Assembly (NCBI RefSeq): GCF_003666245.1
Contig: NZ_MJLZ01000033.1
Location: forward strand, 1 to 50,310
DNA: 50,310 nt
Source: Brenneria alni
GTDB taxonomy: Bacteria > Pseudomonadota > Gammaproteobacteria > Enterobacterales > Enterobacteriaceae
Direction of reading: 5' to 3'
Shown here: positions 9,292-47,874 of the stretch, piece by piece
Layout of the letters: the number at the start of each line of letters is the position of its first letter
How positions within the stretch are numbered: the stretch's first letter is position 1
Position numbers and translations under genes: made by a program
The notes under the pieces: model-generated
The model's input: the letters and a program-made list of their open reading frames with translations, nothing else
Told to the model about the DNA's origin: nothing
Database searches by the model: none

Positions 9292-9708
9292 TTAATGACG
9301 TTTTCCGTCGTCGTCTTCGTCATAAAAATCTTCGTCGTTCGCTTCTTCGCCATCGGGATCTTCAAAGTAGGTTCCCCAGCCGTCGTAGTTCACGCCATAG
9401 CGCTCTGCCAGCGTCAAAAGCTGTTCTACCTGCGCGTCGATCAATTCCGCATTCAACGCCACTTCACTGATGGCATCACAGCACATCAATAAAATCCCGT
9501 CTTCTACTTCAAGCTCTTCCGCGTCCGTTACTTCATAACCCAATTTGAACGCTTCTACGGCAACCTTTTCCAGCACCTCAAACTTCTCGGCTGAAAAATG
9601 GTGTTCAATGGTATAGAGCGCATCGGGATCGCTGCCGTCATCCAGCAGTTCTTCGATGATCAGGCGTGTCTCTTCACGTTGTTCTTCCAGTAATTCGCGG
9701 TTTGCCAT
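9292..9708 (-). CDS. rraB: Ribonuclease E inhibitor RraB
   Basis: The product has 138 residues, the E. coli RraB length, and is strongly acidic, with a C-terminal tail rich in Asp and Glu ([12 protein letters not shown]). RraB binds the C-terminal scaffold of RNase E and alters degradosome composition and mRNA decay in the cytoplasm. The start [15 protein letters not shown] is the family N-terminus. Its position between yjgM and argI matches the conserved enterobacterial order, which supports the identification independently of sequence. Confidence 0.93.
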
Positions 9709-9799
9709 GCCTCGGTCCTCATTAATCGACGTAATATTTCATCATTCTCCCACAGCCCTGCGGCGGTCTCCACCATAAAGTTTTCCGCCGACACTTGAA

Positions 9800-9838
9800 A
9801 TTGAATAATTACACATATAAAGTGAATTTTAATTCAAC
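9800..9838 (+). promoter_or_regulatory. Tandem ARG boxes (ArgR operator) upstream of argI
   Basis: The downstream box has a perfect TGAATTTTAATTCA core at 9823-9836, fitting the ARG-box consensus. A degenerate partner, TGAATAATTACACA, lies at 9802-9815. The two 18-bp boxes are centred 21 bp apart, the spacing ArgR hexamers need. They sit just ahead of the argI start, so arginine-dependent repression is expected. Confidence 0.85.
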
Positions 9839-9870
9839 CATTGGTGTTGAGCTGTATGGAGATATGCTTT

Positions 9871-10878
9871 ATGAAACTGTTTTATAAGCGCCATTTTTTA
9901 AGATTAATGGATTTTACGCCAGTAGAAATCGCCAATCTTTTAGCCCTGTCAACGAAACTGAAAGCCGATAAAAAAAACGGTTCTGAAATCCGCCGCCTGC
10001 AAGGCAAAAACATCGCACTCATCTTCGAAAAAGATTCGACCCGTACTCGCTGCTCTTTCGAAGTTGCTGCATACGATCAGGGAGCGCAGGTGACTTATCT
10101 GGCGCCCAGCGGCAGTCAAATCGGACATAAGGAATCCATCAAGGATACCGCACGTGTGCTGGGCAGAATGTATGATGGCATCCAGTATCGCGGATACGGT
10201 CAGCAGATCGTTGAAACACTGGCGCAATATTCCGGTGTACCCGTCTGGAACGGGCTGACGAATGAATTCCATCCAACGCAATTGCTGGCGGATCTGCTGA
10301 CGATGCAGGAGCAATTACCCGCCAGACCGCTGTCGGACATGAAACTTGCCTACGTGGGAGACGCCCGCAACAATATGGGCAATACCATGTTGGAAGCCGC
10401 CGCGTTGACCGGGCTGGATTTACGTCTGGTGGCGCCCAAAGCCTGTTGGCCGGAAGCGGGGCTGGTCGCGGAGTGTCAGGCGGCGGCAAAACAAACCGGC
10501 GGCAACATCACGCTGACGGATGATATCGCGTCAGGTGTGGCTGGCGTCGACTACCTTTATACCGACGTATGGGTATCTATGGGCGAACCCAAAGAAACCT
10601 GGCGGGAGCGCATTACGCTGCTGAAACCTTATCAGGTAAACATGGCGATGATTGCCGCTACCGGCAATCCACAAGTAAAATTCCTGCACTGCTTGCCGGC
10701 ATTCCATGATGATCAGACCACAATTGGCAAACAAATGGCGGAGCAGTACGGACTACACGGTGGAATGGAAGTCACGGATGAGGTGTTTGAGTCCACACAC
10801 AGCATCGTATTCGATCAGGCGGAAAATCGTATGCACACCATTAAAGCTGTGATGGTGGCGACATTAAGCCAGAGTTAG
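9871..10878 (+). CDS. argI: Ornithine carbamoyltransferase
   Basis: The enzyme makes citrulline from ornithine and carbamoyl phosphate in arginine synthesis. It has 335 residues from the ATG at 9871 (GGAG about 10 bases upstream); the frame is open upstream to 9841, but those codons have no homology. Signature motifs are STRTRCSFE (carbamoyl-phosphate binding), HPTQLLADL, the ornithine-binding DVWVSMGE region and HCLPAFHD. The close match to E. coli ArgI and the neighbourhood rraB-argI-tabA support argI rather than argF. Regulation by ArgR follows from the boxes immediately upstream. Confidence 0.95.
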
Positions 10879-13933: not shown

Positions 13934-13965
13934 AAAGGCGCACCATTTGGCTGTGCGCCTTTTTC
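13934..13965 (+). terminator. Rho-independent terminator of ridA
   Basis: AAAGGCGCAC (13934-13943) pairs perfectly with GTGCGCCTTT (13953-13962) around a nine-base loop, followed by more T residues. Confidence 0.88.
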
Positions 13966-14125
13966 TCTCTCTGCCCGTTTTTCCTGCCGTCGCCTACCGC
14001 TGTGCAACCACTCGACCCGCCGCACCAAGCAAGTGCAAAAAAATCTGCCGGATGATAGCAGGCAGGCACTTTGTCAAAATGGCGCATTTTATGCATTGTT
14101 CTATTATCGCTATTAAGCGATACGC

Positions 14126-15571
14126 ATGGGGATGACAATGATAAAAATGACGCTTCCGACAACGTCTTACTACGATGAGATGCTCTCCGTAGAAGGCCAA
14201 CAACGCCAACATTACAATTCCTATTGGCAATGGCTGCAACAAACCGACCAACAGGCAATCAGACAGAAAAAGGAGCAGGCTGAACTACTGTTTCATCGCG
14301 TCGGCATTACCTTTAACGTCTATGGCGAAGAAGGCGGCACTGAGCGTTTAATTCCCTTCGACAGCGTACCGCGTATTATTCCCGCCCATGAATGGCGTCA
14401 GCTTGATCGCGGTATCCGCCAACGGGTGCAGGCGCTGAACGCGTTTTTATATGACATCTATCATCAGCAGCATATTCTCAAGGCCGGCATTATTCCCAGC
14501 CAACAAGTGCTGGCTAACGATCAATATCAACCCTGTATGCAGGGTGTGGATTTGCATAACAACATTTATGCCCATATCACCGGTATTGATATGGTGCGCA
14601 ACAGCGACGGCCATTATTACGTTCTGGAAGACAACCTGCGCACCCCTTCCGGGGTTTCTTACATGCTGGAAAACCGCAAAATGATGATGCGGTTATATCC
14701 GGATCTGTTCGCCAGCCAGCATATTGCCCCCGTCGAACGCTACCCCAGCTATCTGCTGCAAACGCTGCGTGAAAGCACACCGGTTGACGACCCGACCGTG
14801 GTGGTGATGACGCCGGGGCGGTTTAACAGCGCCTATTTTGAACACAGCTTTCTGGCGCAACAAATGGGCGTCGAACTGGTGGAAAGCGCCGATCTGTTCG
14901 TTAAGGAAGGGACAGTCTACATGCGAACCACCGAAGGCCCCTGTCAGGTGGACGTGATTTATCGTCGCGTGGATGATGCCTTTCTCGATCCGCTGGCATT
15001 CCGCGCCGATTCAATGCTCGGCGTACCCGGCCTGCTGTCGGTGTACCGTTCTGGCGGCGTGGTGCTGGCCAACGCCATTGGCACCGGTGTGGCGGATGAT
15101 AAGTCCATCTACCCTTACGTACCGGATATGATCCGCTTCTACCTGTCCGAAGAGCCTATTCTGGGCAATATCCCGACCTGGCAGTGCCGCGATCCGCAAG
15201 AACTCAGCTATGTGCTCAACAATCTGGATAGCATGGTGGTGAAAGAAGTTCACGGCGCAGGCGGGTACGGGATGTTGGTCGGCCCCAGGGCGACACGCCA
15301 GCAGATCGAGGATTTCCGCCTGCGCTTGCTGTCGAATCCGTACAATTACATCGCTCAGGAAACGCTGGCGTTGTCCACCTGCCCCACCTTTGTGGAAGAT
15401 GGACTGGCTCCCCGTCATATCGACCTGCGTCCGTTCGCACTTCTGGGGGAAGAGATCCGCCTGATACCCGGCGGTTTAACCCGCGTCGCACTGACGGAAG
15501 GCTCATTGGTGGTCAACTCCTCGCAAGGCGGCGGCACCAAAGATACCTGGGTCATGGAGGAGGATGAATAA
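14126..15571 (+). CDS. Circularly permuted ATP-grasp protein of the Anbu operon (COG2308 type)
   Basis: The product is up to 481 residues (ATGs at 14126, 14132 and 14138 all possible; the last two follow a GGGGAT stretch). Segments typical of this circularly permuted ATP-grasp family are visible: EDNLRTPSGVSYMLENR, TPGRFNSAYFEH, VIYRRVDDAFLDPL, VVLANAIGTGVADDK and MVVKEVHGAGGYGML. Family analyses predict an amide- or peptide-bond-forming ligase that uses ATP to join amino acids or tag a protein or peptide. The substrate is unknown. The TAA overlaps the ATG of the next gene (TAATG), and the four genes to 18082 form one transcription unit, so the enzyme is expected to act with the alpha-E, transglutaminase-like and Anbu proteins. 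Confidence 0.85.
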   Translation: MGMTMIKMTLPTTSYYDEMLSVEGQQRQHYNSYWQWLQQTDQQAIRQKKEQAELLFHRVGITFNVYGEEGGTERLIPFDSVPRIIPAHEWRQLDRGIRQRVQALNAFLYDIYHQQHILKAGIIPSQQVLANDQYQPCMQGVDLHNNIYAHITGIDMVRNSDGHYYVLEDNLRTPSGVSYMLENRKMMMRLYPDLFASQHIAPVERYPSYLLQTLRESTPVDDPTVVVMTPGRFNSAYFEHSFLAQQMGVELVESADLFVKEGTVYMRTTEGPCQVDVIYRRVDDAFLDPLAFRADSMLGVPGLLSVYRSGGVVLANAIGTGVADDKSIYPYVPDMIRFYLSEEPILGNIPTWQCRDPQELSYVLNNLDSMVVKEVHGAGGYGMLVGPRATRQQIEDFRLRLLSNPYNYIAQETLALSTCPTFVEDGLAPRHIDLRPFALLGEEIRLIPGGLTRVALTEGSLVVNSSQGGGTKDTWVMEEDE

Positions 15572-16500
15572 TGTTAAGCCGCACCGCCAGCGAACTCTAT
15601 TGGATGGCCCGCTATCTGGAGCGGGCGGAAAGCCTTGCCCGTGTTCTGGATGTCACCTACAAATTATCCATGATGCCGCGCCACAGTCAGCAACAACGCG
15701 ATCTGGCGCTACCGCTGAACCTGACCTCTACGCATGAGTTGTTTCAGGAACGCTATACGCTTTTCTCCATGAGCAATCTGCTGAACTTTTTCGCGCTGGA
15801 CAGCCAGAACCCCAGCAGCATCTATAACTGTATTGAGATGGCCTGGAATAATGCCCATGCCGTGCGCGGCAGCCTGTCCTCAGAGGTGTGGGAATGCATT
15901 AACACCACCCGCATTGATATCCGTAACCTGCGCGACCAGGGGGTGGATAAAATCGGCATTGATACTTTCTTTGACTGGGTAAAAGAGCGCGCTCATCTGT
16001 TCCGGGGCGCGATGTTTGGCACCCTGTTGCGCAACGACGCACAATGCTTTATTCGTCTCGGCACCCTCATCGAGCGCGCCTACGCTACCGCACAGTTACT
16101 CAGCCTGAAAGATCAACAGTTGAATAGCGATCCCGATCCCGTGCGTGAATATTACCGGCTGGATACGCTGCTGCGGGCCGTCAGCGCCCGCGAAGCCTAT
16201 CACAGTATCTATCGCCAGCCGATCAGCCGCGAAACCGTAACGGAATTACTGGTGTTACGTGAGGATGTTCCGCGCTCACTGCACGCCTGTATCGACGATC
16301 TGGTACAGCAACTGGAGGCCATTGGCGGCCAGCGGGCCAGGGTTCCCCACCGTCTTGCCCATCTTCTGCACGTGGAGCTGCGTTTTGGTACGCTTGACGA
16401 CATTATGGCTGAGGGGCTGGATGCCTATCTGAAACACTTTCTAAGTAAAATCAATGAACTGGCAGATAGCATCCGTCATACCTATCTGGAGGCGCTATGA
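15571..16500 (+). CDS. Alpha-E domain protein (DUF403/COG2307)
   Basis: This 309-residue, mostly helical protein starts MLSRTASELYWMARYLERAESLARVLDV, the family N-terminus, with the helix-rich motif that gave the alpha-E name. Its biochemical activity is not established. It is consistently linked with circularly permuted ATP-grasp and transglutaminase-like genes, and is thought to be a partner of the ligase. It shares one base with the upstream gene (TAATG) and four with the downstream gene (ATGA), so its stoichiometry is probably fixed by translational coupling. It is cytoplasmic: no signal peptide or membrane segment is seen. Confidence 0.85.
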   Translation: MLSRTASELYWMARYLERAESLARVLDVTYKLSMMPRHSQQQRDLALPLNLTSTHELFQERYTLFSMSNLLNFFALDSQNPSSIYNCIEMAWNNAHAVRGSLSSEVWECINTTRIDIRNLRDQGVDKIGIDTFFDWVKERAHLFRGAMFGTLLRNDAQCFIRLGTLIERAYATAQLLSLKDQQLNSDPDPVREYYRLDTLLRAVSAREAYHSIYRQPISRETVTELLVLREDVPRSLHACIDDLVQQLEAIGGQRARVPHRLAHLLHVELRFGTLDDIMAEGLDAYLKHFLSKINELADSIRHTYLEAL

Positions 16501-17321
16501 AACTTACCATTAATCACCTGACGCATTATCACTATGATGAGGAAGTGAAATTCAGCACCCAGTATCTGCGTTTGACGCCACAGAACTCAGCCCGCCAGCA
16601 GATTCAGGAGTGGAAACTGATGCTCCCCGCCCCGGCCATTACCACCACCGATGCCTATGGCAACGTACTGCATGTGCTGACCCTTGATGTTCCCCATCAC
16701 GACATCACGATCCACGCTCAAGGCATAGTGGAAATCGCCGATAACGCAGAAGCGGCCTATGACAGCGGCCAAGCAGATACCCTGTCGCCGCTGGTATTCC
16801 TGCGCAGCACACCGCTGACGGAAGCGGATGGCAACATCCGCGAGTTTGCACAGCGCTATTATCGGCCACAGGAACCAGAAGAAAGCCTGAACACGCTGAT
16901 GGCGGAATTACAGTTGAAAATGCCGTATACTCCCGGCGCCACGCAGGTTCAGGATACCGCGGCAGAGGCGTTTGCCATGCGCAAAGGCGTTTGTCAGGAT
17001 CATACCCATGTCTTTCTGGCCTGTTGCCGCAGCCTGAATATTCCTGCCCGCTATGTGAGCGGTTATGTCTATAGCCAGGATACCCAGCATGTGGCTATGC
17101 ACGCCTGGGCGGAAGTCTGGCTGAACGATCGCTGGCAAGGTTTTGATATTACCAATAACACCCGTTTGCTCTATCAGCATCTGTGGCTGGCGGTAGGCAT
17201 GGACTATCTGGATGCTTGCCCGGTACGCGGCTCACGACTCGGCGGCGGGTGTGAAGAGATGTTTTCAGAGGCTGAGGTACGCCTGTTTGAACGCCAACAA
17301 CAGGTACAGCAGCAACAGTAA
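16497..17321 (+). CDS. Transglutaminase-like cysteine protease/peptidase of the Anbu operon
   Basis: This 274-residue protein has an N-terminal beta domain (about 1-110, beginning MKLTINHLTHYHYDE) typical of the bacterial transglutaminase-like N-terminal family, then the papain-like core. The catalytic triad is visible as Cys166 (GVCQDHTHVFL), His202 (AMHAWAEVWL) and Asp217 (GFDITNN). There is no signal peptide, so it should act in the cytoplasm. In this operon type it is predicted to hydrolyse or transfer the amide or peptide bonds made by the ATP-grasp partner. The substrate is unknown. Confidence 0.88.
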   Translation: MKLTINHLTHYHYDEEVKFSTQYLRLTPQNSARQQIQEWKLMLPAPAITTTDAYGNVLHVLTLDVPHHDITIHAQGIVEIADNAEAAYDSGQADTLSPLVFLRSTPLTEADGNIREFAQRYYRPQEPEESLNTLMAELQLKMPYTPGATQVQDTAAEAFAMRKGVCQDHTHVFLACCRSLNIPARYVSGYVYSQDTQHVAMHAWAEVWLNDRWQGFDITNNTRLLYQHLWLAVGMDYLDACPVRGSRLGGGCEEMFSEAEVRLFERQQQVQQQQ

Positions 17322-17344
17322 CTTTTATGACGAAAAGGTGTTCT

Positions 17345-18082
17345 ATGACGTACTGTGTGGCCATGCGTTTGTCTGACGGCTTGGTATTTGCTTCAGATTC
17401 CCGCACCAATGCCGGTGTTGATCACATTGCAACGTTTAAAAAACTTCATGTCTTTCATCATGATGATCAACGTGTGCTGGTGATCCAATGCGCTGGCAAT
17501 CTGGCCACCACCCAAAGCATCATCAGCCTCCTTAGCGCCCGCATCGAGGCGCAGGAAACGCCTAACCTGATGCAGACCAGCACAATGTACCATGCCGCCA
17601 TGCTGCTGGGGGAAACCGTGCGAGAGGTAATTCACCGCGACAGCCAGTCCCAGCAGAGCGGCAGCAACACCAATTTCGGCTGCAATCTTATCCTCGGCGG
17701 TCAGATTAATGGTGAGGCGCCACGGCTGTTCCATATTTATCCTGAAGGCAACTTCATCGAGGCCACCGACGACACACCCTATTTTCAAATCGGCGAAAGC
17801 AAGTACGGCAAACCGATTATCGATCGGGTACTGAGCATGGATACGCCGCTGGAGCAGGCCATGTGTTGTGCGCTGATCTCCATTGATTCCACCCTGCGCA
17901 GTAACCTGTCGGTAGGATTGCCGCTGGACGTCATGATCTACCGTGCGCACAGCTTTGATAGTAGCGAGCAACAACGTATTACCGAGAGTAATCCCTATTT
18001 TATCCAAATCCGCAAGGCGTGGTCGGAAGGGTTGCTGAATACCTTCCGCCAGCTCCCCCTCTTCCCAGAGATTCAGAAGTAA
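17345..18082 (+). CDS. Anbu (proteasome-type beta subunit-like) peptidase
   Basis: The ATG at 17345 follows AAGGTG and gives 245 residues beginning MTYCVAMRLSDGLVFASDSR. After loss of Met1 the N-terminal nucleophile is Thr1, with Asp17 and Lys32 in the positions expected for the Ntn-hydrolase proteasome active site. Unlike true proteasome beta subunits there is no propeptide. Anbu is a proposed ancestral proteasome relative found in bacteria that otherwise lack proteasomes; structures show open helical or ring-like assemblies rather than a closed barrel, and no physiological substrate is known. It is the last gene of the four-gene operon, 23 bases after the transglutaminase-like gene. An upstream in-frame ATG at 17327 would mask Thr1 and is unlikely. 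Confidence 0.93.
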   Translation: MTYCVAMRLSDGLVFASDSRTNAGVDHIATFKKLHVFHHDDQRVLVIQCAGNLATTQSIISLLSARIEAQETPNLMQTSTMYHAAMLLGETVREVIHRDSQSQQSGSNTNFGCNLILGGQINGEAPRLFHIYPEGNFIEATDDTPYFQIGESKYGKPIIDRVLSMDTPLEQAMCCALISIDSTLRSNLSVGLPLDVMIYRAHSFDSSEQQRITESNPYFIQIRKAWSEGLLNTFRQLPLFPEIQK

Positions 18083-24990: not shown

Positions 24991-25926
24991 ATGGCAAATA
25001 AAATTTGGGTGATGGGCGACGCGGTGGTCGATCTCATCCCGGAAGATTCAGAGCGTTACCTCAAATGTCCGGGCGGCGCTCCGGCTAATGTCGCAGTAGG
25101 TATTGCCCGGCTGGGGGGCCACAGCGCATTTATTGGCCGGGTAGGAAACGACGTTTTCGGTCACTTTCTGCAAAACGTCCTGGATCAGGAGCAGGTAGAC
25201 ATACACTGCATGATCCGGGACGATCGCTATCGCACCTCTACCGTGGTCGTCAGCCTGGACCAATTCGGCGAACGGTCATTTACCTTTATGGTACGTCCCA
25301 GCGCCGATCTGTTTCTACAAGCGGATGATTTACCCGTATTCAGCCGCGGAGAATGGCTGCATCTGTGCTCCATCGCCCTTTCACAGGAACCTTCGCGCAG
25401 CACGGCCCTTGAGGCGATACGCCGCATAAAAGCCGCGCAAGGATGGGTCAGTTTCGATCCCAATATCCGCGAGGACCTCTGGTCCAGCGAGCAGGAACTG
25501 AAAACGAGCCTCGATCAAGCGCTGGCGCAGGCTGACGTCGTGAAGCTATCGCAGGACGAGTTGGTGTTTCTCACCGCCACCGACGATATAGAACAAGGCA
25601 TCGAGTGGCTTATGCAACGCTACGCCATAAAGCTGCTGCTGGTCACACTGGGCAGTGAAGGCGTATGGCTCCATGACGGTAAACAGCGGCAGCACTTCGT
25701 TGCGCCCTACGTCACGCCGATTGATACCACCGGCGCAGGCGACGCCTTTGTTGCCGGGTTACTGCAAGGTTTAGCCGAATACGACGATCTCTCACAGGCG
25801 GTTTCATGGGAAAAGGTTATCGAACAGGCCCAACTGTGCGGCGCGCTTGCCACAACAGCTAAAGGCGCCATGACAGCCCTGCCTTACGCGCAACAAATCC
25901 GCTCTACATCGCCGGCCAGACACTGA
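24991..25926 (+). CDS. scrK: Fructokinase of the sucrose regulon
   Basis: This 311-residue PfkB-family sugar kinase phosphorylates the fructose released by ScrB to fructose-6-phosphate. It shows the N-terminal GGAPANVAVGIARLGG signature and the C-terminal DTTGAGDAFVAGLL motif with its catalytic Asp and anion hole. The order scrK-scrY-scrA-scrB-scrR is that of the enterobacterial scr regulon (plasmid pUR400 and Klebsiella). The half-operators just upstream suggest ScrR repression relieved by fructose or fructose-1-phosphate, as known for that regulon. Confidence 0.94.
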   Translation: MANKIWVMGDAVVDLIPEDSERYLKCPGGAPANVAVGIARLGGHSAFIGRVGNDVFGHFLQNVLDQEQVDIHCMIRDDRYRTSTVVVSLDQFGERSFTFMVRPSADLFLQADDLPVFSRGEWLHLCSIALSQEPSRSTALEAIRRIKAAQGWVSFDPNIREDLWSSEQELKTSLDQALAQADVVKLSQDELVFLTATDDIEQGIEWLMQRYAIKLLLVTLGSEGVWLHDGKQRQHFVAPYVTPIDTTGAGDAFVAGLLQGLAEYDDLSQAVSWEKVIEQAQLCGALATTAKGAMTALPYAQQIRSTSPARH

Positions 25927-25980
25927 CCACGCTAGCGCATCAGTGAGTAATCCTGTTTTGCTGTCAGGATCACAGTTACA

Positions 25981-26016
25981 CAATCGGGCTGGTGAAATTC
26001 CTTGCCAACCCGATTG
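25981..26016 (+). terminator. Inverted repeat between scrK and scrY
   Basis: CAATCGGG (25981-25988) pairs perfectly with CCCGATTG (26009-26016), with inner TGG/CCA pairs. A T-rich stretch (GTTTTATTTT) starts four bases later, so it could terminate scrK transcripts or process the mRNA before the second scr promoter. Confidence 0.5.
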
Positions 26017-26017
26017 A

Positions 26018-27676
<1,659 letters not shown>

Positions 27677-27749
27677 TAGTCACATAACGTGGCCGCCGGT
27701 TATCAAGACCGATAACCGGCGACGAGGATACCGTAAAAAGAGGAATAAA

Positions 27750-29120
27750 ATGGACATTAACGCCACAGCGACAGCACTCATCCCCTTGTTGGGGGGAAAA
27801 GAAAATATCGCCAGCGCCGCCCACTGCGCCACCCGTCTGCGCCTGGTACTCAATGATGATAAGCAGGCCGACAAAAAAGCGATTGAACAGGTTGAAGGAG
27901 TCAAAGGCTGTTTTCACAATGCGGGGCAAATACAGATAATTTTCGGTACTGGACTGGTCAATAAAGTTTATGCCGAATTTATCAAAGTGGCTGGCATCAG
28001 TGAGTCCAGCAAGTCTGAAGCCGCTACGCTGGCGGCACAAAAACTAAACCCACTGCAACGTCTGGCGCGCCTGCTGTCAAATATCTTTGTTCCCATCATT
28101 CCGGCGATTGTTGCATCCGGTCTGCTGATGGGGCTGCTCGGGTTGATCAAGACCTATGGCTGGGCCGATGCCGGCAGCGCGGTTTTCATTATGCTGGATA
28201 TGTTCAGCTCCGCCGCATTTATCATCCTGCCTATTCTTATCGGTTTCACCGCCGCCAGGGAATTCGGCGGAAACCCCTATCTCGGCGCAACATTGGGCGG
28301 CATCCTCACCCATCCTGCACTCACCAACGCCTGGGGGATTGCCAGCGGCTTTCAGACCATGAACATGTTCGGTCTGGATATTGCCATGGTGGGTTATCAG
28401 GGTACGGTCTTCCCGGTGTTGCTGGCCGTCTGGTTTATGAGCATGGTGGAAAAACGCCTGCGCAAAGTGGTGCCAAATGCGTTGGATATCATTATTACTC
28501 CATTTCTGACCGTGGTCATTTCTGGCTTTATCGCCTTACTGATCATCGGTCCGGCAGGGAGAATGCTGGGTGACGGTATCTCTTTCGTACTGAGCACCTT
28601 GATTACGCACGCAGGGTGGCTGGCCGGGCTGCTGTTCGGCGGAACCTATTCCGCGATTGTTATCACCGGTGTTCACCACAGCTTCCATGCCATTGAGGCC
28701 GGGCTGCTGGGTAATCCAAACATCGGCGTTAACTTCCTGTTGCCGATCTGGGCAATGGCTAACGTCGCTCAAGGCGGTGCTTGTCTGGCGGTTTATTTCA
28801 AAACCAACGATGTGAAAATCAAGGCAATTGTTATCCCATCCTCGTTTTCTGCGCTGCTCGGCATCACCGAAGCCGCCATATTTGGTATCAACCTGCGCTT
28901 TGTAAAACCGTTCCTGGCCGCACTGGCGGGTGGGGCATTGGGCGGGGCATGGGTCGTCTTCAATCACGTCAATATGACGGCGGTAGGATTGACGGGCTTC
29001 CCAGGTCTGGCTATCGTCCAGGCAGGCTCTATGCTCAACTACCTCGTTGGTATGCTCATCGCCTTCGGTGCAGCGTTTATCATTTCATTCCTGCTGAAAT
29101 ATAAAACGGATAGCGAATAA
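27750..29120 (+). CDS. scrA: Sucrose-specific PTS enzyme IIBC
   Basis: The ATG at 27750, after AAGAGGA, gives 456 residues, equal to E. coli ScrA. The IIB domain (1-90) carries Cys26 in AHCATRLR, the phosphorylation site. The IIC domain (about 105-456) has about ten membrane segments and family motifs such as GGILTHPALTNAWG and ITGVHHSFHAIE. The substrate leaves as sucrose-6-phosphate. There is no IIA domain, so Crr (IIA-Glc) supplies phosphate, as known for this family. The TAA overlaps the scrB ATG. Confidence 0.97.
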   Translation: MDINATATALIPLLGGKENIASAAHCATRLRLVLNDDKQADKKAIEQVEGVKGCFHNAGQIQIIFGTGLVNKVYAEFIKVAGISESSKSEAATLAAQKLNPLQRLARLLSNIFVPIIPAIVASGLLMGLLGLIKTYGWADAGSAVFIMLDMFSSAAFIILPILIGFTAAREFGGNPYLGATLGGILTHPALTNAWGIASGFQTMNMFGLDIAMVGYQGTVFPVLLAVWFMSMVEKRLRKVVPNALDIIITPFLTVVISGFIALLIIGPAGRMLGDGISFVLSTLITHAGWLAGLLFGGTYSAIVITGVHHSFHAIEAGLLGNPNIGVNFLLPIWAMANVAQGGACLAVYFKTNDVKIKAIVIPSSFSALLGITEAAIFGINLRFVKPFLAALAGGALGGAWVVFNHVNMTAVGLTGFPGLAIVQAGSMLNYLVGMLIAFGAAFIISFLLKYKTDSE

Positions 29121-30529
29121 TGATGGAAACCCATTTGTTAAAACGTATGGCGTATGCCCTGATGTCTAACCAGGCCCGCATCGGCAATGATCCTCACCGT
29201 CCGCATTGGCATCTGTCGCCAAGCGTGGGGCTACTCAACGATCCGAATGGATTTATACATCACAATGGTCGTTACCATCTGTTTTATCAGTGGAATCCTT
29301 TAGCCTGCACCCACGGAGCAAAATTCTGGGGGCACTGGAGTTCAGTCGATTTGGTGCATTGGCGGCACGAGCCTGTTGCGTTAGTGCCTAGTGAAAGCTA
29401 TGAGACGCACGGATGCTATTCCGGTTCCGCCGTGGTTGATAATGGCGCGATCACCCTGATTTACACTGGCAATGTGAAATACGAGGACGGTTCGCGTACT
29501 GCATTCCAGTGTCTGGCCAGAGAAAACACCGATGGAGAGTATGACAAGCTGGGGCCGGTGCTGACGTTGCCGGAAGGCTATACCGGCCATGTCCGTGATC
29601 CAAAGGTATGGAAACACGAGGATCACTGGTACATGGTTCTCGGCGCACAGGATAAACAGCTACAAGGCAAAGTGCTGCTGTACCGCTCAAGCGATCTGCG
29701 CCACTGGGAACGGATCGCTGAAATTGCCGGTTCCCGACTTGGCGGTCTGGGTGATTTTGGTTATATGTGGGAATGCCCGGACCTATTCAGACTGAACGGA
29801 CGGGATGTCTTAATCTGCTGTCCGCAAGGGGTGCCAGCGGAAGAAGAGCGCTATCTGAACACCTTCCAGGCAGGTTACTTTATCGGGGCGCTGGATTATC
29901 GAAACGGTAATTACCCGCATCATGGATTCAACGAATTGGATCTTGGCTTTGAGTTTTACGCGCCGCAAACAACGGAAAGTGAAGATGGGCGGCGTTTGAT
30001 GTTTGGCTGGATGGCCATTCCCGATGAGAACGAGTTTTTTGAGCCGACGATTGCTCATGGATGGCTCCATACCATGACCTGCCCGCGGGAACTTACGCTA
30101 CGTGAAGGGAAACTCTATCAACAACCTGTCCGCGAACTGCAACAGCTTCGAACACAGCATTATACCTGGCATGGCGTCGCCAACTATGCACCACCGTTAG
30201 CCGTTGACAGCGCCGAAGTCACACTGACCTCCCAGGGCGAATTTCAGCTCAACATCGCGTCCTTACTGGTTCTCTGCTGGGATGGCGAATGCCTGACCCT
30301 AAGCCGGCATAACCGTCGCACGGGGGAACCAGAACATCGTTACTGGCGCGGAGATCTGCACCAGTTGCAGATCCTGTGCGATCGCTCCAGTGTCGAGATT
30401 TTTATCAATGATGGTGTAGCCGTGATGTCTGCCAGCTATTTCCCCGGCAGCAACGCAACGCTCTCCTTCAGTGGCCCAGGGCGATTGACGTTGCAACACT
30501 GGCTGTTAGCGCCATGCGTGATAGAATAA
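29120..30529 (+). CDS. scrB: Sucrose-6-phosphate hydrolase
   Basis: This 469-residue GH32 invertase cleaves sucrose-6-phosphate to glucose-6-phosphate and fructose. The three GH32 motifs are present: LLNDPNGF (nucleophile Asp), RDPKVW and ECPDLF (acid/base Glu). A five-bladed propeller (about 30-340) and a C-terminal beta-sandwich are expected. The first ATG shares a base with the scrA stop; a second ATG follows immediately at 29123. The protein is cytoplasmic, with no signal peptide. Confidence 0.96.
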   Translation: MMETHLLKRMAYALMSNQARIGNDPHRPHWHLSPSVGLLNDPNGFIHHNGRYHLFYQWNPLACTHGAKFWGHWSSVDLVHWRHEPVALVPSESYETHGCYSGSAVVDNGAITLIYTGNVKYEDGSRTAFQCLARENTDGEYDKLGPVLTLPEGYTGHVRDPKVWKHEDHWYMVLGAQDKQLQGKVLLYRSSDLRHWERIAEIAGSRLGGLGDFGYMWECPDLFRLNGRDVLICCPQGVPAEEERYLNTFQAGYFIGALDYRNGNYPHHGFNELDLGFEFYAPQTTESEDGRRLMFGWMAIPDENEFFEPTIAHGWLHTMTCPRELTLREGKLYQQPVRELQQLRTQHYTWHGVANYAPPLAVDSAEVTLTSQGEFQLNIASLLVLCWDGECLTLSRHNRRTGEPEHRYWRGDLHQLQILCDRSSVEIFINDGVAVMSASYFPGSNATLSFSGPGRLTLQHWLLAPCVIE

Positions 30530-44214: not shown

Positions 44215-44299
44215 GCCGAAGTGGCGAAATCGGTAGACGCAGTTGATTCAAAATCAACCGCCTTCGGGTGTGCCGGTTCGAGTCCGGCCTTCGGCACCA
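44215..44299 (+). tRNA. leuX: tRNA-Leu (anticodon CAA)
   Basis: This 85-base gene has a seven-pair acceptor stem (GCCGAAG with CTTCGGC), a GTTGA/TCAAC anticodon stem with loop TTCAAAA, anticodon CAA at 44249-44251, a long variable arm as in all tRNA-Leu, a GGTTCGAGTCC T arm, and an encoded CCA end. It corresponds to E. coli leuX, a well-known integration site for pathogenicity islands; the integrase gene 220 bases downstream fits that use. Confidence 0.97.
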
Positions 44300-44313
44300 T
44301 CGTATGAAAATCA

Positions 44314-44338
44314 AGTCACCTCAGGGTGGCTTTTTTTA
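44314..44338 (+). terminator. Terminator after tRNA-Leu
   Basis: AAGTCACC (44314-44321) pairs with GGTGGCTT (44326-44333, one G-T wobble) around TCAG, followed by further T residues to 44338. Confidence 0.75.
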
Positions 44339-44460
44339 TGTCCATAATCGTCCACTGAATTCCATATCTATCTGTAAAATAACAATTTTAATTTCATTCC
44401 CCTCTCTGCGTTTTTGTCTATTTTATCCACACTGGTCTTTTTTCGTCCATTGACATCCAG

Positions 44461-44521
44461 ATAATTTGGGGGTCAAGATGAGGGTCAATTCACTTCGATT
44501 ATGAGTTGACCCCCAAATTAT
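44461..44521. repeat. 16-bp inverted repeat overlapping the integrase start codon
   Basis: ATAATTTGGGGGTCAA (44461-44476) and its exact complement TTGACCCCCAAATTAT (44506-44521) flank 29 bases. The word GGGTCAA occurs again at 44482-44488, giving two direct copies 12 bp apart and one inverted copy. The right arm runs into the ATG of the integrase (44520), which has no ribosome binding site. Confidence 0.88.
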
Positions 44522-45776
44522 GGCGCTGACTGACGTTGTTGCCCGAACCGCCAAGCTGCGCGAGAAAGCCTACAAACTCGCGGATGCGAATGGCCTGTAT
44601 CTTTTGGTGAGTCCTAACGGCTCTAAGCGCTGGTATCTCAAATACCGCTTTGCAGGTAAGGAAAGCCGGATTGCGTTCGGCGCCTATCCGCTGATCTCGC
44701 TGGCAAAGGCCAGAGAGAAACGTGACGAGGTGCGATTGCTGCTGTTGGAGGGCATCCACCCAACGGAAAAGCGTGAAGAAGAGAAAGTGCAGGCACAAGA
44801 AGCGTTGAATACCTTTGAGAAAGTCGCGCAGGACTGGCATCGAAACATTAGTCAAAACCGCTGGTCGGAAACGCATGCTGGGCGGGTATGGCGCGATATG
44901 GAACGGAATATTCTGCCTGCTATCGGGCATCGCCACATTGCCGACCTGAAAACCAAAGACCTGCTTGAACCGCTTAAAACCGTGGAACAAAACGGCCATC
45001 TTGATTTGGCGTCACGGCTGCGCCAGCGCGTCACCGATATCATGCGCTACGCGGTGCAGAACGATCTGATAGAGCGCAACCCCGCGCAAGACCTCTCCGG
45101 GGCGATAGCCGCGCCAAAAGCCACCCACCGGCCTGCGTTGAAGCTGAACAAACTGCCGGACTTTCTGGCAAGGATTGAACGCCACAAAGGGCGGGCATTA
45201 ACCAAGCTGGCGTTAAAACTTACTCTGTACGTTTTCATCCGCTCCAGTGAGCTACGTTTTGCCCGTTGGCCGGAAATCGATTTCAAATGCGCCATGTGGA
45301 CGATACCGGCTGAACGTGAAGCCATCCCTGGCGTGAAGCACTCGCAGCGCGGCGCAAAGATGCGCTCTGAACATCTGGTGCCGTTATCCCGACAGGCTTT
45401 AGCGCTGCTGGAAGAGATTAAGGCCATCAGTGGCGGACACGAACTGATTTTCCCCGGCGATCACCGGCCAACCAAACCGATAAGTGAAAACACCGTCAAC
45501 AATGCATTGCGGGTAATGGGCTACGACACCACCACCGAAGTCTGTGGACACGGTTTCCGCACGATGGCCTGTAGCGCACTAGTTGAGTCCGGCAAGTGGT
45601 CACGGGATGCGGTAGAGCGCCAGATGAGTCATCAGGAACGTAATGGCGTTCGTGCTGCTTACATCCACAAAGCGGAACATCTGGATGAGCGCAGGCTGAT
45701 GCTGCAATGGTGGGCGGATTATCTGGATGCGAACCGGGATGAGCATGTGGTGCCGTATGAGTTTAGAAATATTTGA
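44520..45776 (+). CDS. P4-type tyrosine integrase at tRNA-Leu
   Basis: This 418-residue site-specific recombinase begins MALTDVVARTAKLREKAYKL, the N-terminal DUF4102 arm-binding domain of P4-like integrases. A SAM-like core-binding domain (about 97-190) and the catalytic domain follow, with Arg246 (SELR), His344/Arg347 (HGFR), His371 (SHQ) and nucleophile Tyr381 (AAYIHK). All five catalytic residues are present, so it may be active. It points away from leuX, the usual arrangement for islands inserted there. There is no Shine-Dalgarno sequence, and the start codon lies in an inverted repeat, suggesting autoregulation by the integrase. Confidence 0.94.
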   Translation: MALTDVVARTAKLREKAYKLADANGLYLLVSPNGSKRWYLKYRFAGKESRIAFGAYPLISLAKAREKRDEVRLLLLEGIHPTEKREEEKVQAQEALNTFEKVAQDWHRNISQNRWSETHAGRVWRDMERNILPAIGHRHIADLKTKDLLEPLKTVEQNGHLDLASRLRQRVTDIMRYAVQNDLIERNPAQDLSGAIAAPKATHRPALKLNKLPDFLARIERHKGRALTKLALKLTLYVFIRSSELRFARWPEIDFKCAMWTIPAEREAIPGVKHSQRGAKMRSEHLVPLSRQALALLEEIKAISGGHELIFPGDHRPTKPISENTVNNALRVMGYDTTTEVCGHGFRTMACSALVESGKWSRDAVERQMSHQERNGVRAAYIHKAEHLDERRLMLQWWADYLDANRDEHVVPYEFRNI

Positions 45777-45794
45777 TTCATTAATGAGTTAGCG

Positions 45795-45959
45795 ATGAAA
45801 AAAACGAAAAAACCAACGGTGCCGGTTACTTCTCTGATTGAAGAAGAGGAAGAACAGCGTCATCAGAGAGTCTTGCGAGGGCTTGCCGATGTTGATGCTG
45901 GGCGTGTTGTAAATCACGCTGATATGCAGGCGTTTATCGCCAGACTGAAGCAAGCATAA
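45795..45959 (+). CDS. Small antitoxin-like protein, 54 residues
   Basis: A frame of 54 codons starts 18 bases after the integrase stop. The N-terminus is lysine-rich (MKKTKKPTVPV), followed by an acidic EEEEE run and then GLADVDAGRVVNHADMQAFIARLKQA. The last part resembles the C-terminal half of short type II antitoxins of the ParD/RelB sort (GLxDxxAGRVVxHxxv). No toxin gene is adjacent, so it is either an orphan or serves another role. The ribosome binding site is weak. Confidence 0.55.
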   Translation: MKKTKKPTVPVTSLIEEEEEQRHQRVLRGLADVDAGRVVNHADMQAFIARLKQA

Positions 45960-46097
45960 TCAATAAAAATACAGGGCGTATCCTGTATCGAAAGCATATG
46001 CATTAAGCTCCGCGCCAGCCCCTTTTTCTTATGTGGATGATTTTCCCTGCGCAGTATCATTTCTGCCAGATCGTTTTCCAACATTACATTCTTACCT

Positions 46098-46178
46098 TTT
46101 TACAGCATATAAGCTGTTTTATCATTTTACAGCTTATTTGATGTATTCTGTTTTTTACAGCTTATAGGGTGTATTATG
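46098..46178. promoter_or_regulatory. Three operator-like direct repeats ahead of hipBA
   Basis: The word TTTTACAGC followed by (A/T)TAT occurs at 46098, 46125 and 46153, spaced 27 and 28 bp. Copies two and three agree at 22 of 26 positions. The first forms a palindrome ACAGC-ATATAA-GCTGT (46102-46117). This spacing of nearly three helical turns suits cooperative binding of HipB dimers. The rest of 45960-46229 shows nothing else. Confidence 0.65.
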
Positions 46179-46229
46179 TAAAAACAACCTATAGTATGTA
46201 TAAGTATCTAAAATAAGGATAAGTGCCTT

Positions 46230-46535
46230 ATGAATACTGTTTATCCGTTGAAAACCTTGAATCAGTTGCGCCCATTGCTGATTGGCTTTCGCAAAGCTAA
46301 GGGACTGACGCAAAAAGAAGTGTCTGAAAGGTTAGGTGTAACACAGCAAACCTATGCCCGTCTGGAAGCAAACCCAGAAAGCGCCAGTATTGAGCGCTTG
46401 TTTAAAGTGCTTACTGTTCTGGGGGTTGAGGTGGTGCTGTCTTCTGGACCAAGAGTACATTTCTCGATGTCATCCTCAACAATGGAAGATCCAGAAAAGC
46501 CAATAGACTCACCCGCCAGACGGGAAAAATGGTGA
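46230..46535 (+). CDS. hipB: HipB-type antitoxin, XRE-family DNA-binding protein
   Basis: This 101-residue protein has an XRE helix-turn-helix (about residues 24-66, with GLTQKEVSERLGVTQQTYARLE) and a polar C-terminal tail of about 30 residues. Family members bind and inhibit the HipA kinase and repress their own operon. AAGGA lies upstream of the ATG. It precedes hipA by four bases. Base composition is lower in G+C than the core chromosome, consistent with transfer. Confidence 0.88.
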   Translation: MNTVYPLKTLNQLRPLLIGFRKAKGLTQKEVSERLGVTQQTYARLEANPESASIERLFKVLTVLGVEVVLSSGPRVHFSMSSSTMEDPEKPIDSPARREKW

Positions 46536-46539
46536 TGAT

Positions 46540-47874
46540 ATGCGTCGTACACAACAGCGGTTAGCGATATGGATGAACGGGATCCAGGTTGGATTCTGGG
46601 AAAGGGCCCGAGGTGAAGATAGGCTGCAATACCTTCCGGAATGGATTGCTGATGAACAGGGAAGACCTTTATCACTCTCTTTGCTTTTCACCCCCGGTAA
46701 TCAGCTTTGGCGCGGCAATATGGTACGCGACTATTTTGATAATTTATTGCCTGACAGCGAAGTCATTCGTAGGCGTTTAGCAATGCGTTACCATGCTGAC
46801 AGCCTTGAGCCTTTTGATCTGTTGGCGGAACTGGGAAGAGACTGTGTTGGTGCAATACAGTTACTGAATGTTGATGAGGAACCCACAGATTTATTTTCCG
46901 TAAATTATCGTCCGCTTTCTGAAGCTGAGATCGCCACAAGATTGCGTAATACCACGGTGGAATTGTTTCCAGGTCGGCAGGATGATACTGACGATTTGCG
47001 TTTATCGATTGCCGGTGCGCAGGAAAAAACGGCTTTACTGTGGCATGAAGAACAATGGTGTTTACCAGAAGGTAATACCCCAACCACACATATCTTTAAG
47101 CTACCACTCGGGCTGGTTGGTAATATGCAAGCGGATATGAGTACGTCGGTTGAAAATGAATGGCTATGTTCTTTGCTTCTTGAGCACTACGGGAGCCGTG
47201 TAGCAAAAACACAGATTGCGCAGTTTGAAGATCAGAAGGCATTGGTCGTTGAGCGTTTTGACAGAAGATGGTCAGGCGATCGGCAATGGATCATTCGCTT
47301 GCCACAAGAGGATATGTGTCAGGCTTTGGGTGTTTCACCGCTACGAAAATACCAGTCTGATGGTGGGCCAGGTATTTCCGATATTATGGCCATACTGAGT
47401 CATTCAGAGCAGGCTGAACAGGACAAAGCGCAGTTTTTCAGGGCGCAAATTATTTTCTGGCTGATAGCGGCTACTGACGGCCATGCCAAAAATTTCAGTA
47501 TCGCTATTGAGCCACAAGGTCGCTATCACCTTACGCCTCTTTACGATGTTTTATCGGCATGGCCGGTCATTGGTCCGCGTAATAACCAGATTTCTTGGCA
47601 GAAATGCAAGTTGGCAATGGCCGTTCGCGGTAGCAGTAATTATTACCACCTGTACAAAATTCAACGGCGACATTGGATCAAGCAGGGTGAATTAACCGGT
47701 CTTGGCAGACTACAGGTTAAATCCATGATGGATGAAATTATCTCCAGAACGCCTGAAGTTATTGAACGTGTATCTGCGTTACTGCCTGAGTCATTCCCGC
47801 CAGAGCTTGCGGAATGTGTTTTTGAGGGTATGCGGCAACAGTGTGGTCGGTTACAAGAACTACACCGTGAATAA
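46540..47874 (+). CDS. hipA: HipA-type serine/threonine kinase toxin
   Basis: This 444-residue protein (E. coli HipA 440) belongs to the HipA kinase family. It shows SIAGAQEK, with Ser156 corresponding to the autophosphorylated Ser150 of E. coli; the catalytic Asp313 in TDGHAKNFS; and the metal-binding Asp336 in LYDVLSA. E. coli HipA phosphorylates glutamyl-tRNA synthetase and slows growth, leading to persistence; the target here is unproven. All key residues are present, so the kinase is probably functional. The stop at 47872-47874 adjoins a fragment of an unrelated integrase gene on the other strand. Confidence 0.92.
   Translation: MRRTQQRLAIWMNGIQVGFWERARGEDRLQYLPEWIADEQGRPLSLSLLFTPGNQLWRGNMVRDYFDNLLPDSEVIRRRLAMRYHADSLEPFDLLAELGRDCVGAIQLLNVDEEPTDLFSVNYRPLSEAEIATRLRNTTVELFPGRQDDTDDLRLSIAGAQEKTALLWHEEQWCLPEGNTPTTHIFKLPLGLVGNMQADMSTSVENEWLCSLLLEHYGSRVAKTQIAQFEDQKALVVERFDRRWSGDRQWIIRLPQEDMCQALGVSPLRKYQSDGGPGISDIMAILSHSEQAEQDKAQFFRAQIIFWLIAATDGHAKNFSIAIEPQGRYHLTPLYDVLSAWPVIGPRNNQISWQKCKLAMAVRGSSNYYHLYKIQRRHWIKQGELTGLGRLQVKSMMDEIISRTPEVIERVSALLPESFPPELAECVFEGMRQQCGRLQELHRE

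Follow-up and report, generated by a model that had tools for sequence, protein, structure and literature searches.

Most work on Anbu has treated it as a possible ancestor of the proteasome; the passages of the literature covered here give neither a function nor a physiological substrate for it. The Anbu operon, which also encodes a circularly permuted (CP) ATP-grasp ligase, an Alpha-E protein and a transglutaminase-like protein, is credited to Iyer et al. 2009, together with the idea of peptide making or tagging (cited via PMC6376114 and PMC5666114). Anbu has been purified, and structures were solved for Yersinia bercovieri, Pseudomonas aeruginosa and Hyphomicrobium (PMC6376114, PMC5666114); an open split-ring or staircase assembly has been published for Anbu of relatives (PMC6376114, PMC8665760). 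In the present study, we analyzed the Anbu operon of Brenneria alni (positions 14126-18082, + strand, of a 50,310-nucleotide window of the 4.13-Mb assembly) and its upstream DNA. The operon of Y. bercovieri (PMC6376114; PDB 5nyw) has the same four families in the same order, and no difference in kind was seen; in the available text of that paper, the word "NtrC" is absent and the passages with "promoter" concern expression plasmids. In Pseudomonas putida, PP_2685-PP_2688, likened to the present locus from the papers alone, are a proteasome beta subunit-like gene, a transglutaminase-like gene, a hypothetical gene and a CP type 2 ATP-grasp gene, and are nitrogen-induced. Burkholderia cenocepacia I35_5080-5083 likewise encode DUF404/DUF407 (ATP-grasp), DUF403 (Alpha-E) and transglutaminase-like proteins and are NtrC and sigma-54 targets (PMC5491218), but this cluster has two transglutaminase-like genes and no Anbu among the four named genes.

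It is practically certain that 14126-18082 is an Anbu operon, and this operon is an ordinary, intact copy of a widespread and known one (Table 1). The genes follow the published order (ATP-grasp, Alpha-E, transglutaminase-like protein, Anbu), every family match exceeds its Pfam cut-off (CP_ATPgrasp_2 547 bits, Alpha-E 286, Transglut_core 82, Bact_transglu_N 76, Proteasome 47.5), and each frame has one stop, at its end. The initial annotation had described a complete operon of four open reading frames (ORFs) at these positions, with the junctions TAATG, ATGA and a 23-base gap, and the sequence bears this out. The catalytic residues that it named are also present and at least 98% conserved, the window included: Cys166, His202 and Asp217 of the transglutaminase-like protein (114 sequences) and Thr1, Asp17 and Lys32 of Anbu (Met not counted; 104 sequences). 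Co-occurrence in related genomes, on which it had staked its reading, was observed: all four genes lie together in the same order at 76 of the 80 loci that are the best of at least 597 matches to the ATP-grasp of the window. Only HslV, which belongs to the same Ntn/proteasome family as Anbu, and Anbu itself match PF00227 in the assembly (E 0.001), and thus the genome lacks a 20S proteasome (alpha and beta subunits), as had been claimed. The support for the annotation is nevertheless partial. The term "undescribed biochemical system" does not hold, since the operon is known from Iyer et al. 2009, from the solved Anbu structures and from the assayed Yersinia ATP-grasp. Nor is its presence in an enterobacterium special, since 48 of the 294 family genomes sampled match Anbu (one of them, G444, weakly, with 31% identity and internal stops). 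The regulatory DNA at 14022-14095 lies outside the coordinates of that annotation and was missed there.

Table 1. Anbu operon of the Brenneria alni window and candidate regulatory elements upstream of it
Feature	Position	Strand	Basis
Probable ridA terminator: inverted repeat GGCGCAC/GTGCGCC, 7-bp arms, loop 9, then T run	13937..13959	+	Read from sequence
NtrC-like enhancer dyad GCACC-N5-AGTGC, GCACCAAGCAAGTGC	14022..14036	+	Match to GCACYN5RGTGC
Candidate sigma-54 type -24/-12 promoter TGGCGC-N6-TGCA, TGGCGCATTTTATGCA	14080..14095	+	30 bases before ATP-grasp start
Circularly permuted type 2 ATP-grasp ligase, 481 amino acids	14126..15571	+	PF14403 547 bits; PDB 3n6x, E 1e-210
Alpha-E protein, 309 amino acids	15571..16500	+	PF04168 286 bits
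Transglutaminase-like Cys-His-Asp protein, 274 amino acids	16497..17321	+	PF01841 + PF08379; triad residues
Anbu, proteasome-like Ntn-hydrolase, 245 amino acids, Thr1 after Met removal	17345..18082	+	PF00227; PDB 5nyw

A link between the operon and nitrogen is partly in print; the present study adds the promoter-like DNA of this genome and how widely it occurs. The elements were sought with what we take to be the consensus motifs of the NtrC site and of the sigma-54 -24/-12 promoter. The sequence features of NtrC/sigma-54 control are all present, as the candidate box has the right inner spacing for a -24/-12 element, a dyad lies upstream of it, and the genome encodes both NtrC (808 bits) and RpoN (518 bits). 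From ridA to the operon, the + strand has no site by a simple sigma-70 scan, and the terminator-like repeat of ridA, which a terminator scan with a loop limit of 8 had missed, probably separates ridA from the operon. We judge control of the operon by nitrogen through NtrC and sigma-54 to be very probable in this genome. It could instead be argued that the sites upstream match the motifs by chance and that transcription of the operon starts at an unseen promoter or reads through from ridA. Statistics within this single genome count against us here: although the dyad pattern has a single match in the window, 30 of 100 shuffles also contain one, and the loose sigma-54 pattern matches the window 8 times where 3.0 matches are expected. 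A dyad followed by a box at a spacing of 25-55 bases occurs once in the 4.13-Mb genome, at the operon, and with a spacer of 56-86 not at all; however, the reversed control of this combined pattern also matches once. Because the single-window motif statistics are weak, the comparative test carries the weight.

For this test, the cut of the box score was set to 33, the lowest value observed among the first 81 loci (the window and the best 80). A box at or above this cut, present in 81/81 of these loci, was found in only 2/81 reverse strands, 19/1620 shuffles, 28/1620 random pieces and 25/1264 other ORF starts. The full set comprised 149 loci, turned to one strand: the window, the best 80, another 29 from the ATP-grasp scan of sampled genomes of the phylum, and 39 hand-picked from the list of that scan for family spread. 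They were grouped by record titles and kinship labels into an Enterobacterales set (n = 51: the window, L002-L046, L083-L085, L125 and L047, the last titled Betaproteobacteria and placed here by a match of 79-80%), other loci of the class, called gamma/beta by inference (n = 70: L048-L081 and L086-L121, with L088, a duplicate of L076, kept in the counts), and other classes (n = 28: L122-L124 and L126-L150). By the score rule, the box is present in 50/51, 59/70 and 8/28 loci of these groups, respectively, compared with 32/2550, 105/3500 and 21/1400 random pieces (1-3%). A stricter rule, requiring GG and GC and allowing at most two other mismatches, gave 50/51, 62/70 and 9/28, with 73/2550, 147/3500 and 30/1400 in the controls. 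Of the boxes, 24/50, 16/59 and 0/8 have a perfect GCAC-N7-GTGC dyad 25-160 bases further upstream (controls 11/2550, 47/3500 and 7/1400), which makes 40/109 in the first two groups; with one mismatch allowed, the counts are 36/50, 46/59 and 0/8, and those of the controls 191/2550, 456/3500 and 127/1400. Among L002-L046, the box accompanies operons with ridA within 2.1 kb upstream (21/45) and those without ridA in the upstream stretch covered (24/45). Thus, the sigma-54-like box upstream of the operon looks conserved across many relatives. The frequency of the box in relatives argues against chance matches, and the inverted repeat with T run at the end of ridA and the 24 loci without ridA argue against read-through, so that we regard this alternative as very improbable.

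Several points weigh against these conclusions. The cut and the motif weights were chosen after the first 81 loci had been inspected; the 80 loci are the best-matching ones and mutually related, and the 39 later loci were hand-picked. By the score rule, the box is absent from 11 loci of the class and from the diverged Enterobacterales locus L125. In other classes, it is found in just the 8 loci given above, none of which has even the one-mismatch dyad.

Published expression data concern relatives, and a literature search at the level of titles and beginnings of abstracts, mostly of non-subscription papers, found no paper that ties an enterobacterial Anbu operon to NtrC or sigma-54. In P. putida, PP_2685, PP_2686 and PP_2687 were up in a nitrogen-limited chemostat (PMC3325844), and RNA sequencing of the wild type under nitrogen limitation showed rises of 12.61-fold for PP_2686, 11.04-fold for PP_2687 and 14.66-fold for PP_2688 (PMC7801951). 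PP_2685 and PP_2688 were also up on nitrate compared with ammonia (PMC8050072). In a biosensor assay, the fragment before PP_2688 (ATP-grasp) responded 3.7-fold and the fragment before PP_2685 (Anbu) was unresponsive (PMC8050072), which fits a single promoter in front of the ATP-grasp gene; however, the fragment of the known nitrogen gene glnK was unresponsive too (PMC8050072), and thus the negative result for PP_2685 is weak. The sister cluster of B. cenocepacia, with ATP-grasp, Alpha-E and two transglutaminase-like genes, is among the common targets of NtrC and sigma-54 (PMC5491218). In Bradyrhizobium DOA9, an RpoN site is predicted before a CP_ATPgrasp_1 gene, and the other sites in the same table fit the motif poorly (PMC13207237). 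In marine metagenomes, urea-use domains are associated with the domains of the operon (PMC3597751).

Other results speak against this picture. An rpoN mutant of P. putida still raises PP_2686 14.16-fold, PP_2687 16.02-fold and PP_2688 19.61-fold, and it also raises urtABCD 7- to 17-fold under nitrogen limitation (PMC7801951). This induction, on which the explanation by chance sites can also draw, argues against strict sigma-54 dependence or calls that mutant into question. In the same table, PP_2685 changed by only 1.12-fold in the wild type (PMC7801951). NtrC control of PP_2685-2688 was called likely by authors, and the papers disagree on NtrC/RpoN dependence in relatives (PMC5491218, PMC7801951, PMC8050072). 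Another possible explanation is that nitrogen control is incidental, the operon being one of many NtrC targets and its main work, with no bearing on nitrogen supply, an amide modification in stress or at the cell surface. The NtrC regulon of B. cenocepacia does extend to exopolysaccharide and motility (PMC5491218), and the operon was found to be non-essential, with expression unchanged under various conditions (PMC5666114). However, the box is retained across widely separated loci whose upstream DNA is otherwise dissimilar: identity between the two main groups is 0.25 upstream and 0.73 at the motif positions, the latter figure being inflated because the box itself was used for the alignment. 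We therefore consider the incidental explanation unlikely.

The promoter, if real, indicates when the operon works, not what it does. An ATP-consuming ligase and two hydrolase-type enzymes on a nitrogen-starvation switch would most simply form an amide-bond pathway, and we lean towards a canonical Anbu operon that nitrogen starvation induces and that makes or processes a peptide or amide, which as a whole seems somewhat probable. In such a pathway, phosphorylated NtrC would bind the dyad and activate sigma-54 RNA polymerase at the candidate box, and all four genes would share a single transcript that does not include ridA. The ATP-grasp protein, probably together with Alpha-E, would use ATP to couple an amine with a carboxylate, yielding a peptide or amide, and the transglutaminase-like Cys enzyme and Anbu, with its Thr nucleophile, may jointly transfer, trim or hydrolyse the amide bond. 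The likeliest purpose would be to store nitrogen in, or recover it from, the peptide or amide when ammonia is short. The observations beneath this scheme, from the present study or from print, are the gene content, the intact residues, the conserved promoter-like box, the induction in P. putida, and the release of phosphate from ATP by the Yersinia ATP-grasp (PMC6376114). Glu and Gln gave no stimulation of that enzyme (PMC6376114), which counts against the scheme.

Whether the chemistry concerns small-molecule amides rather than protein degradation appears evenly balanced. According to a published idea (PMC6376114, PMC5666114), ATP-grasp and Alpha-E would tag proteins with a peptide, the transglutaminase-like protein would edit the tag, and Anbu would degrade the tagged proteins to free amino acids under nitrogen limitation. 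The ring and the inhibitor binding of Anbu were argued to favour protein degradation over peptide synthesis (PMC5666114), and nitrogen induction fits protein turnover as well. However, Anbu of Y. bercovieri, P. aeruginosa and Hyphomicrobium cleaved 0/3 proteasome test peptides, and the proteins of the operon were not seen to bind one another specifically (PMC6376114); we hold tagging and degradation to be possible but doubtful. Since connectase, which is related to Anbu, is a ligase and not a protease (PMC8665760), Anbu need not be a protease either. By analogy, the amide pathway might be a dedicated nitrogen-starvation cycle, in which ATP-grasp on an Alpha-E scaffold builds a small peptide or a gamma-glutamyl-type amide, Anbu acts as a ring-shaped Ntn amidase or transpeptidase, not a protease, and genes inserted in the operon of relatives (a GNAT-like gene and a LysE-type exporter, see below) serve as accessories; this specific version is rather unlikely. 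If a nitrogen-starvation promoter does precede the operon across gamma- and betaproteobacteria, the condition under which to seek the substrate of Anbu is defined as nitrogen limitation, and the open question of its function becomes testable.

For the counts of conserved positions, sequences shorter than 80% of the query were removed (transglutaminase-like protein, 140 to 114; Anbu, 105 to 104). In the ATP-grasp protein, 143 of 481 positions are at least 98% conserved (149 sequences), far above the other three (Alpha-E, 24/309 in 146 sequences; transglutaminase-like protein, 30/274; Anbu, 48/245). It covers the whole PF14403 profile (positions 1-374 of 374, 547 bits), and a profile search of the PDB gave only 3n6x, plus one row at E 0.97; a structure model of it was discarded (mean predicted local distance difference test score (pLDDT) 47). 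The model of Alpha-E is all-helical (mean pLDDT 89), and the protein has no clear relative in the PDB by sequence. Alpha-E consists of two tandemly duplicated halves, which align over 90 columns (hhalign E 3.7e-15), and an E-R pair is repeated, E17-R18 being aligned to E168-R169. No mention of this duplication was met in the portions of the literature covered, which do not include Iyer et al. 2009. The transglutaminase-like protein has both the Bact_transglu_N domain and the Cys-His-Asp triad; other transglutaminase-like proteins are mentioned in PMC10274813 and PMC12096838, and other transglutaminase fusions in PMC3710099. The best PDB match of Anbu is Anbu of Y. bercovieri (5nyw, residues 2-238, E 7e-112), with weaker matches to 5lox (P. 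aeruginosa), 5loy (a consensus design) and 5nyj (Hyphomicrobium). In the ORF listing, the Anbu frame opens at 17327, 18 bases before the MTYC start at 17345; we prefer the latter because it is preceded by AAAAGGTG, the solved chains match from Thr1, and it leaves the 23-base gap.

Gaps of more than 150 bases inside the operon number 16 among the 149 loci (the last gap of L083-L111 being outside the coverage). In eight of them, an ORF was judged real (L051-L056, L126 and L127, with the copies of L051, L126 and L127 scanned), those in L100 and L144 are doubtful, and six hold no ORF of 60 codons. All six loci of the Vogesella group, L051-L056, carry a GNAT-like gene (approximately 9354-9878) between Alpha-E and the transglutaminase-like gene, its start overlapping the end of Alpha-E; the copy of L051 is of the ArsN1-b type (220 bits against a cut-off of 210). 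In L126, a LysE-type amino-acid exporter (2155-2775) separates ATP-grasp from Alpha-E, and the guest in L127 is a CMD/AhpD-family protein. These guests may fit a small-molecule product, but they are few and may be chance neighbours.

By their titles, the best 80 loci are from Enterobacterales, Aeromonas, Tolumonas, Pseudomonas and betaproteobacteria. The best-matching named locus for the ATP-grasp is that of Brenneria salicis (94%; records very near the window's own were possibly excluded). Of the 76 loci with the full order, six (L051-L056) have the extra gene inside; the exceptions are L047 and L050, both truncated by contig ends, L059, without an Anbu match, and L067, without a transglutaminase-like match. 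Anbu was found in 105 of the 149 loci, which is not a measure of co-occurrence because the sequences of 29 loci, L083-L111, stop short of Anbu. When sister clusters are counted too, 232 of the 397 phylum genomes sampled have a match to the ATP-grasp, and no DNA match to the ATP-grasp gene was found in 20,395 records of Escherichia coli. A CP type 2 ATP-grasp gene with 50% identity is carried by a 90-kb plasmid of Enterobacter roggenkampii (NZ_CP116251.1, 22786-24189), together with a second matching place.

In the window, the operon is flanked by pyrI, a pyrB-like ORF and ridA upstream and by nrdD downstream; the pyrB-like ORF was named from its own sequence and matches the same ORF in related loci. 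When ORFs of at least 90 amino acids around the 80 loci were clustered and clusters in at least 3 of 15 groups were counted, no fixed partner gene was found around the operon. Besides the operon genes, the clusters were antisense frames of those genes, the pyrBI-ridA region in some Enterobacterales, and scattered general families, judged by eye (ABC-transporter ATPase in 7 groups, short-chain dehydrogenase in 5, LysR-type regulator in 4 and P-type ATPase in 3). Elsewhere in the window, a PfkB kinase, a LamB-type porin and a glycosyl hydrolase 32 lie near each other at 24991-30529, a grouping that presumably resembles a sucrose-use cluster. The stretch 44215-47874 is the probable start of an integrated island; it opens with a tRNA-Leu (caa) (44215-44299), behind which lie a phage-type integrase (44520-45776) and then a HipA-like protein (46540-47874).

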